Source: Proteinivorax tanatarense
GTDB taxonomy: Bacteria > Bacillota > Proteinivoracia > Proteinivoracales > Proteinivoracaceae
Reading direction: 5' to 3'
Assembly (NCBI RefSeq): GCF_040267685.1
Contig: NZ_CP158367.1
Span: forward strand, 2,976,001 to 3,040,000
Length of the DNA stretch: 64,000 nt
Each line of letters opens with the position of its first letter. Position 1 is the first letter of the stretch. The notes beneath the pieces were generated by a model. It had not been told where the DNA came from, did no database searches, and saw only the letters and a list, made by a program, of their open reading frames with translations. The translations under genes and the position numbers were made by a program. Of the stretch, positions 35,083 to 37,980 are shown one piece after another.

Positions 35083-35116
35083 AAAACTGTTGAGAATATA
35101 TTCTCAACAGTTTTTT
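35081..35116. terminator. Perfect 36-bp palindromic bidirectional terminator
   Basis: Two 18-base arms (AAAAAACTGTTGAGAATA and its reverse complement) lie between the convergent hydrolase and larB genes. The A6 and T6 ends give U-tracts on both strands. Confidence 0.9.
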
Positions 35117-35861
35117 ACATTCTGTTAATCATGCTGGCTAAATAGCCTGCACCAAACCCATTATCTATGTTCACCACCGATACACCACTAGAACAGCTAT
35201 TCAACATAGTCAATAAAGCTGATAGCCCGTTAAAGTTAGCTCCGTATCCAACACTAGTAGGCACAGCAATAACCGGTTTATCTACTAAGCCTCCAACTAC
35301 ACTAGCTAACGCACCTTCCATTCCAGCTACCGCAATAACCACCCTAGCACCCTGAATTGTTTCTAAGTTAGCAAACAATCTGTGAATTCCAGCAACTCCA
35401 GCATCGTAAACTGTACGTACTTCGTTGCCCAAGGCTATTGCTGTTTCAGCTGCTTCTTCTGCCACTGCCATATCCGATGTTCCACCAGTTACTACTGCTA
35501 TATAACCTTTGTCCACTCTAACTTTTTCATTCTCTATAGTAATTACCCTAGCCATCTTATTATATTTTGCCTTAGATAATTTCCCTTTCACTGCTTCATA
35601 CATTTTGGGAGTAGCTCTAGTTGCTAATACATTATTCCCTTTTTGAGCTATATTTTCACATATAGCCACAACCTGCTCTACAGTTTTAGACTGACAAAAA
35701 ACCACTTCTGGATATCCTTGCCTTAGATTGCGATGATTATCTACTTTTGCAAATCCCAAATCATCAAAAGGCAACCCTTTTAAACGGTCAACAGCATCAT
35801 CAACGGAAACTTCGCCGTCTTTTACTTTGTTGAAGAGATCTGATAGTTTATTCTTATCCAT
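35115..35861 (-). CDS. larB: Nickel-pincer cofactor synthesis: NaAD carboxylase/hydrolase
   Basis: LarB carboxylates and hydrolyses nicotinic acid adenine dinucleotide to pyridinium-3,5-biscarboxylate mononucleotide. 248 residues. The C-terminal PurE-like domain shows VVTGGTSDMAVAEEAAETA, DAGVAGIHRL and PTSVGYGANFNGLSALLTMLNSC, all typical of LarB; the Cys in LNSC corresponds to the family's active-site cysteine. It starts at the stop of larE (1-base overlap), so the two are coupled. Confidence 0.94.
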   Translation of the reverse strand: MDKNKLSDLFNKVKDGEVSVDDAVDRLKGLPFDDLGFAKVDNHRNLRQGYPEVVFCQSKTVEQVVAICENIAQKGNNVLATRATPKMYEAVKGKLSKAKYNKMARVITIENEKVRVDKGYIAVVTGGTSDMAVAEEAAETAIALGNEVRTVYDAGVAGIHRLFANLETIQGARVVIAVAGMEGALASVVGGLVDKPVIAVPTSVGYGANFNGLSALLTMLNSCSSGVSVVNIDNGFGAGYLASMINRM

Positions 35862-36652
35862 TATAGCACCTCATTTTGACTACCCATCCTATATCCTTCA
35901 AGATCTACTGTTACATAAGAAAACCCAAGGCTTTTTAGCTCATTATTTACCTGCCTATAAATCTTAGGTGTTAAAAGCCTAGCTAAATCTTGCTCAGCTA
36001 CTTCGATTCGAGCTAACTGCCCATGTAGTCTAATCCTAACTGTAGAAAAACCTATACCCATTAAATATAGTTCTCCTTCCTCAATTTTTCTCAAATCCTC
36101 CTCTTTTATTCTTTGACCGTACTCAATTCTAGATAAAATACAAGCGTAAGCTGGTTTGTCCCATGTTTCTAACTCCAATTTCTTAGAAACAGATCTAACC
36201 TCTGCCTTTGTTATTTTTACGCTTTGTAGTGGGCTTAAAACGTTTAGCTCCCTTAAAGCCTTTAAACCAGGCCGATAATCTTTATCATCATCTGCGTTGG
36301 TACCATCTAGAACATAAACTATCCCTTCATTTTCTGCAAAATCTTTTATCACTTGAAAAACTTTCTTTTTACACAAATAACATCTATCGGAAGGATTGTC
36401 TATTATTTCCGGCATTATATCGCCAAACTCAATTATTTCATGTCTAACGCCTAACTTTTCCGCTATCTCTTTCGCTTCTTTTATCTCCCAGTTAAGATGA
36501 AAAGGAGCATGTATTGTTAGTGCAACCACCTTATCCCCTAAAGCGTCTTTTGCGGCTTTTAAAACAAGGGTACTGTCTACTCCCCCTGAAAAGGCTACTA
36601 CTACACTCTCTAGCTTTTTGATATGCTCCACTAGTTTATTATAACGTTCCAT
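35861..36652 (-). CDS. larE: Nickel-pincer cofactor synthesis: ATP-dependent sulfur transferase
   Basis: LarE adenylates the biscarboxylate mononucleotide and inserts sulfur. 263 residues. PP-loop FSGGVDST (21-28), then DRCYLCKKK with C91 and C94, and KPAYACILSR with C171. In the Lactobacillus plantarum enzyme a single cysteine at the position of C171 is sacrificed. Homologues with three cysteines can hold a [4Fe-4S] cluster and may act catalytically, and this protein has the three-cysteine pattern. It lies 17 bp after larC. Confidence 0.94.
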   Translation of the reverse strand: MERYNKLVEHIKKLESVVVAFSGGVDSTLVLKAAKDALGDKVVALTIHAPFHLNWEIKEAKEIAEKLGVRHEIIEFGDIMPEIIDNPSDRCYLCKKKVFQVIKDFAENEGIVYVLDGTNADDDKDYRPGLKALRELNVLSPLQSVKITKAEVRSVSKKLELETWDKPAYACILSRIEYGQRIKEEDLRKIEEGELYLMGIGFSTVRIRLHGQLARIEVAEQDLARLLTPKIYRQVNNELKSLGFSYVTVDLEGYRMGSQNEVL

Positions 36653-36669
36653 TTTTCCGTGCCTCCTGA

Positions 36670-37817
36670 TTAGATATATTTTATTACAGTGCTATAAACT
36701 TCTCTAAGTGGTAAGCCATGGTTTTTTGCCAGCTTAACACACTCATCGTACTCAGGCTTAGCTTTGGTAATTTTGTTATGTCTAGATATCTTAATGGTAA
36801 CCTCCCCTAGTGGAGTTGATATCTTTTTAAATGAGCGTTTCATTTTTTCTCTTTTAACTGGATAATATCTAACTCCCCAGGAGGTCGTTTCAGAAAGCAA
36901 TATTTTCACACAATTATCTAACTCTTTTTCATTGCACAACACACTTAATTTGGTAGCTGGTCTGTTTTTCTTCATTAAAATAGCTGTTGTATAAACATCT
37001 AAAGCATTATTATCAAAAAGTTTTTGAGTAACAAAGTTAAAAAGCTCAGGATTCATATCGTCGATGTTGCAATCAATTACCCATGTAGATTCTTCAATTT
37101 TTTTTTTTCACCTAACATCACTCTTAATACATTTGGAACTTGGTTATCTCTTCCACCTATGCCATATCCAGTTTTAACGACGGTAAATTCAAAATCCTTA
37201 GTGTATTCATCGCCAAATACTTTGGCAATGGCAGCTCCTGTAGGGGTGGTCAGTTCCACCTCAGCATCACCGGAAACAATAGGAATTCCCGCTAATATTT
37301 CAGTGGTAGCAGGTGCCGGAACAGGAAACTTCCCGTGGGCGCAGTTTACAAAACCTCTACCAGTAGCTAAGGGCGAAAAAACTACTTTATCCACATCCAG
37401 CTTATCTAAACACACAGCAGCTCCAACTGTGTCAACGATAGAATCAATAGCTCCAACTTCATGGAAGTGCACCTCATCTACCGACTTGCCATGTATCTTA
37501 GCTTCAGCTTTGGCTACCTCTAAAAAGAGCTGTTGGCTAATTTTTTTTATATTATTATTTAAGTCACTATTATCTAATATTGTACTAATGTCATTGAAAT
37601 TTCTATGGTGATGCCCCTCTTCCAAGCTATGTACAATAACCCTGGTTCCTGTTATACCTTTTCTCTCATCTCGATTAACCGTTATATCGTAACCATCTAC
37701 ATTGAGTTTTTTTAGCTGGTTCACCAAATACCCTTTATCAACTCCTATATCTATCATTGCACCAAGGTTCATATCACCACTTATCCCAGAAAAACAGTCA
37801 TAATACAGCACTCTCAT
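36670..37817 (-). CDS. larC: Nickel-pincer cofactor synthesis: nickel insertase LarC, expressed across a -1 frameshift
   Basis: LarC inserts nickel into the pincer nucleotide in a CTP-dependent reaction. The coding region is split. Frame 1 (37817-37077, 246 codons) holds YYDCFSGISGDMNLGA, HFHEVGAIDSIVDTVGA and PVPAPATTEIL. Frame 2 holds WVIDCNIDDMNPE and GEVTIKISRHN, down to the stop at 36670. The frames overlap around an A11 run. A -1 slip there changes GEKKK-LKNLHG-stop to GEKKK-IEESTW and gives a full-length product of about 382 residues. Frame 2 has no ribosome site before its first ATG (37056). Programmed frameshifting is known for larC of Lactobacillus plantarum, so this is probably genuine and not a broken gene. 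Confidence 0.9.
37098..37108 (-). other. Probable programmed -1 frameshift site in larC (A11 run)
   Basis: Eleven consecutive A on the minus strand, read as GAA AAA AAA AAA TTG in the upstream frame. Slipping back one base gives ATT GAA GAA and joins the downstream LarC frame. The zero-frame stop (TAA, 37077-37079) follows 19 bases after the run. I did not identify a convincing stimulatory stem-loop. Confidence 0.75.
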
Positions 37818-37980
37818 AGATTAGCCTCCTTATTTAATTAAGTTGCTTTCTCTTATTATACTATATTTTATTTCTGTTATCTAATTTATAAGAGGTTATA
37901 AGTATGAAGTTGGGCACCCAGCATATTGTGAAAGTTTGATGCTTACAGCCAATTAATCTGCGATTAAGTGTATATCAAAA

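Follow-up and report, generated by a model that had tools for sequence, protein, structure and literature searches.

The larC gene of Proteinivorax tanatarense, within the 64,000-nucleotide window analysed here, cannot be read through in a single frame, because its two domains, LarC1 and LarC2, lie in overlapping frames that meet at a run of eleven adenines (A11). This raises the question of whether a gene split in this way still yields a complete nickel insertase and, if so, by what means. An earlier note on this DNA had proposed that a -1 frameshift at the run rebuilds the protein. On balance, and with modest confidence, we favour the A11 run as a slip site that fuses LarC1 and LarC2, the slippage being mostly that of RNA polymerase with a contribution from ribosomal -1 slippage.

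Two overlapping frames and their joined product

The run and the two frames lie exactly where the earlier note had placed them (Table 1). The run occupies the first part of the frame overlap, an A_AAA_AAA heptamer is present there in the zero frame, and, since the stops of both frames bound these 28 nt, the change of frame must take place between 37107 and 37080. The same note had expected a -1 change at the run to restore the family sequence, and this is borne out: in a profile search the joined protein matched PF01969, of which DUF111 is the old name, with 489 bits over its whole length (1-375/375), and the separate halves matched it with 306.5 (LarC1) and 169.3 bits (LarC2). Additionally, the distinct models that NCBI maintains for the two domains scored well above their curated cut-offs (LarC1, TIGR00299, 212.4-213.8 bits against 90; LarC2, NF052512, 150.1-153.2 bits against 50). 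By these profiles the predicted joined product belongs to the LarC nickel insertion protein family. It also aligns end to end with the solved LarC structure 12bi, and the solved stand-alone domain 6bwo starts at residue 245 of joined LarC, just past the slip site.

Table 1. Features of the larC locus (window coordinates)
Feature	Positions	Strand	Details
larC zero frame, LarC1 (N-terminal domain), 246 aa	37077..37817	-	ORF listing; C-terminus LKNLHG, TAA at 37079-37077
Shine-Dalgarno AGGAGG of larC	37825..37830	-	7 nt ahead of ATG 37817; read in sequence
A11 slip site of larC (putative)	37098..37108	-	T on + strand; zero frame GAA AAA AAA AAA TTG
larC frame overlap, 28 nt	37080..37107	-	Limits: -1-frame stop TGA 37110-37108, zero-frame stop TAA 37079-37077
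larC -1 frame, LarC2 (C-terminal domain), IEESTWVIDCNIDDMNPE...	36670..37098	-	Stop at 36670-36672
larE, sacrificial sulfur transferase	35861..36652	-	Next downstream of larC; TIGR00268 325 bits
larB, cofactor biosynthesis protein	35115..35861	-	One-base overlap with larE; NF033503 299 bits
Junction-spanning sequence of predicted joined LarC			LGEKKKIEESTW

Separate, even distant, genes encode LarC1 and LarC2 in other Bacillota, which shows at the level of gene organisation that the boundary between them is a true domain border. The stand-alone LarC1 genes (L040/L041, L042, L060, L062, L065, L066, L059, L061, L163, L200 and L228), whose LarC2 partner lies elsewhere, lies on the opposite strand or was not found, represent repeated gene fission at this boundary. 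Two further larC genes (L038 and L074, in G099 and G326) have no slip site; at the domain boundary they contain instead a long His-rich insertion that keeps the frame.

Directly downstream of larC, larE and larB are both intact. No match to the LarA N-domain (PF09861) was found in the whole genome despite the presence of larC, larE and larB (35115-37817), so the nickel-pincer cofactor may here serve another, non-LarA enzyme.

Adenine runs at the LarC1/LarC2 boundary in relatives

The earlier note had suggested looking for the same run in relatives, and it proved to be widespread. Of 398 genomes sampled across the phylum, 225 had larC, and in at least 23 of these, from 11 families, the gene was split by overlapping frames at the LarC1/LarC2 boundary; the in-frame insertions (L038, L074) and the stand-alone LarC1 or LarC2 genes (L039, L040, L041, L042 and others) were excluded from this count. 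The set was extended with one genus and one family in full, Lactobacillus plasmids and named loci, giving 51 larC genes with a run of at least eight A at the boundary, 45 of them split and six in a single frame. The split genes carry runs of A8 to A11 and come from at least 11 families plus the Clostridium, Romboutsia and Lactobacillus loci; they include Clostridium brassicae (A10), C. jeddahtimonense (A9), Romboutsia timonensis (A9) and a Thermohalobacteraceae MAG (A9). A -1 change is needed in 38 of them (A9 in 32, A10 in five, A11 in one) and a +1 change in seven (A8 in four, A9 in three), and the six single-frame genes need no shift (A10 in four, A11 and A9 in one each). The larC of the window thus has the longest -1 run collected. 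Every overlapping split contained an uninterrupted run of at least eight A and none a shorter one, and all three codon phases serve as the run start, whereas 26 intact homologues have at most 2-7 consecutive A around the junction. In the family f126 (L063, L069, L073) the stretch past the A9 run is dual-coding: its unslipped frame encodes a His-rich tail that ends LarC1 and could bind nickel, and its +1 frame encodes the linker into LarC2.

Run length and direction change between close relatives. The genus of G160 has seven species with A9/-1, one with A8/+1, three with A10 in frame and one with A9 in frame owing to another indel; the family of G383 is mostly A9/-1, with three species A8/+1 and one A10 in frame. 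A tree of LarC1 sequences that left out the junction region gave at least 11 changes between run and no run and at least 10 changes of direction, and the three A8 species of the G383 family did not group together in it, several forks there being weakly supported. Among Lactobacillus plasmids, larC is in frame with A11 in seven from Lacticaseibacillus paracasei and has A10 in four records of the same gene (two of which are one plasmid), a within-species difference to which older sequencing could add, and it has A10 in two plasmids of Lactiplantibacillus plantarum. In the genus of the window both species use -1. larC was missing from the genomes sampled from other genera of the family and from the class (G002-G012), and the tree places the window gene beside Anaerovirgula, so the lar genes of the window may have been acquired horizontally.

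The run is also exceptional within its own genome, which is AT-rich. Of six runs of A11 or longer in 3.09 Mb, only that of larC lies within a gene and the other five are intergenic, outside any ORF of at least 100 aa; the A11 in larC is therefore not due to chance. Shorter runs are commoner, with 13 of A10 (seven in genes, in sense orientation) and 117 of A9 (many in genes): A11 in a gene is extreme for this genome and A9-A10 are tolerated. Three 467-aa ORFs (L237, L239 and L248; G000:C1 near 328208, 726363 and 2953605) each contain an A10 run, and L237 proved to be an IS1182-like transposase (DUF772), a family in which frameshifting has reportedly been seen.

Polymerase or ribosome as the site of the proposed slippage

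In the reading that we favour, the A11 run would be a slip site within the interdomain linker of LarC. Without slippage the product would be LarC1 of 246 aa, and slippage equivalent to one added A (or two removed) would give the LarC1-LarC2 fusion, the full nickel insertase of about 382 aa, so that both short and full-length products would be made. Most of the slippage would occur in RNA polymerase, yielding mRNAs with variable numbers of A, and -1 slippage of tRNA-Lys on A_AAA_AAA would contribute. We infer that this organism makes the slipped product and, more weakly, that RNA polymerase does most of the slipping. The earlier note had further stated that 10 or 12 A would restore a single frame; 12 (or 9) would, but 10 would not.

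Bacterial polymerases begin to slip at run lengths of 8-9 (PMC1088944, PMC3711429), and such A/T homopolymers are present throughout, as A11 here and as A8-A11 in all 45 split genes. Furthermore, both directions occur among orthologues irrespective of codon phase, and mixed direction is, for Antonov et al. (PMC3711429), the mark that distinguishes transcriptional realignment from ribosomal frameshifting. We place polymerase slippage ahead of the ribosome because of this mixed direction and because the shortest runs, of 8-9, match the slip length of the polymerase. Against this, -1 far outnumbers +1 (38 versus 7), an excess that is predicted by ribosomal slippage and not by symmetric transcriptional slippage, and both species of the genus use -1. 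In addition, the genome tolerates A9 and several A10 in genes, and according to Baranov et al. (PMC1088944) the polymerase may slip little where a genome does not avoid 9A.

These points bear on the main rival, which we regard as rather unlikely, namely pure programmed ribosomal frameshifting in which tandem tRNA-Lys slips one base back on A_AAA_AAA of a faithful mRNA. The zero-frame heptamer of the window fits it, as do the -1 majority and the shared direction in the genus of the window, and reporter frameshifting in E. coli is described for the family (PMC3711429), by an assay that does not separate transcription from translation. Seven A in the right phase would nevertheless suffice for the ribosome, yet all split genes have at least eight, and +1 and in-frame orthologues substitute for -1 between sister species, so that conserved direction was found only in the two-species genus of the window and not among the orthologues overall. 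The earlier note's -1 change of frame at the run therefore stands, but not its choice of the ribosome as the agent, since the orthologues are 38 with -1, seven with +1 and six with none; this mix and the flips between sister species fit RNA-polymerase slippage at least as well as ribosomal slippage. Stimulators of programmed -1 frameshifting, an upstream Shine-Dalgarno sequence or a downstream stem-loop, are frequent but not obligatory. No consistent downstream structure was detected in the 70 nt past the run (mean z -0.54 over 36 distinct sites; window z +0.90), nor any consistent Shine-Dalgarno stimulator about -10 to -14 across the split sites, and both elements were rejected as slip stimulators. 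As far as these comparisons reach, the A run is the only element common to split larC sites.

A second rival, which we consider very unlikely, dispenses with slippage and has LarC2 translated alone, by re-initiation at ATG 37056 or at a non-standard ATT, to act in trans with LarC1. Separate LarC1 and LarC2 genes do exist in other Bacillota, and in Paenibacillus LarC2 is preceded by its own ribosome site. For the LarC2 frame of the window, as the earlier note had observed, no ribosome site was found: the first standard start, ATG 37056, has a Shine-Dalgarno match of at most two of six, and it sits within the conserved NIDDM motif, so that starting there would drop the conserved NIDD segment. 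The only other candidate is the non-standard ATT 37098, and an internal start was rejected. Moreover, the A run would then have no reason to be retained.

Still less probable is phase variation at the DNA level, with expansion and contraction of the run toggling full-length LarC. Run length does vary among sister species, and L. paracasei plasmids have either A10 or A11, but only six of the 51 run-bearing genes are in frame, against about a third under random switching, and LarC is not a surface structure.

In the sister species (G001, L033) the split falls at the same codon and also requires -1 (GGT GAA AAA AAA AAT TAG, A10); the flank differs by a net 3 nt, which preserves the -1 relation despite the A10. 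Between the two species, changes at the three codon positions, each half being read in its own frame, number 25/16/114 in LarC1 and 15/10/45 in LarC2, with dN/dS of about 0.06 and 0.13, respectively; judging from these changes, both halves are under purifying selection. A sequencing error or recent pseudogene is accordingly scarcely credible, even though homopolymers are prone to errors and a one-base change would rejoin larC in one frame, since the same -1 split at a different run length in the sister species rules out an assembly error, the third-position bias in both halves, frame 2 included, argues against a dead gene, the split recurs across families and the adjoining larE and larB are intact.

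Known systems and significance

Frameshifting in the larC family is already known and the window gene is a further member, although only the DUF111 work was found in the literature on larC frameshifting. In its accessible part, Antonov et al. 2013 (PMC3711429) describe a DUF111 GeneTack cluster that resembles the window in protein family, in its two overlapping frames and in its poly-A-type site, with frameshifting measured at up to 39% in E. coli; relative to what is described there, the larC relatives collected here add +1 and in-frame runs. The precedent in Lactobacillus claimed by the earlier note also holds, larC1/larC2 of L. plantarum and L. paracasei plasmids sharing with the window the gene, the boundary and a bare A run read by -1 (A10). 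The contrast that the note implied does not, because that site is itself a bare run, of A10 (-1) or, in the seven L. paracasei plasmids, of A11 in frame; the Lactobacillus run is, however, followed by a stable fold (z -2.7) that the window lacks. In dnaX of Thermus thermophilus, too, a bare A run (A9, transcriptional slippage; PMC1088944) gives short and long products, but there the unslipped frame gives the long product and in the window larC the short one. PMC3711429 also contains magnesium chelatase genes, an enzyme family unrelated to larC, in which -1 at an A11 run likewise restores a fused two-part metal-insertion protein, with 63% frameshifting in E. coli.

Tentatively, and with some doubt, we suggest that the larC poly-A run may be a transcriptional-slippage device that tolerates differences in length and works in both directions. 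It would have evolved repeatedly at the border of LarC1 and LarC2 and would supply both products whatever the genomic frame, the run and not the frame being under selection. This bidirectional turnover of run length, of which an incomplete literature search found no description for larC, is the interesting part of the finding. A cofactor gene that looks broken very probably still functions, and gene callers will report it as two fragments or as a pseudogene. The series of sister species with A8/+1, A9/-1 and A10 in frame provides a natural test of RNA polymerase versus ribosome as the site of larC recoding, and it also bears on why cells would keep free LarC1 beside full LarC.
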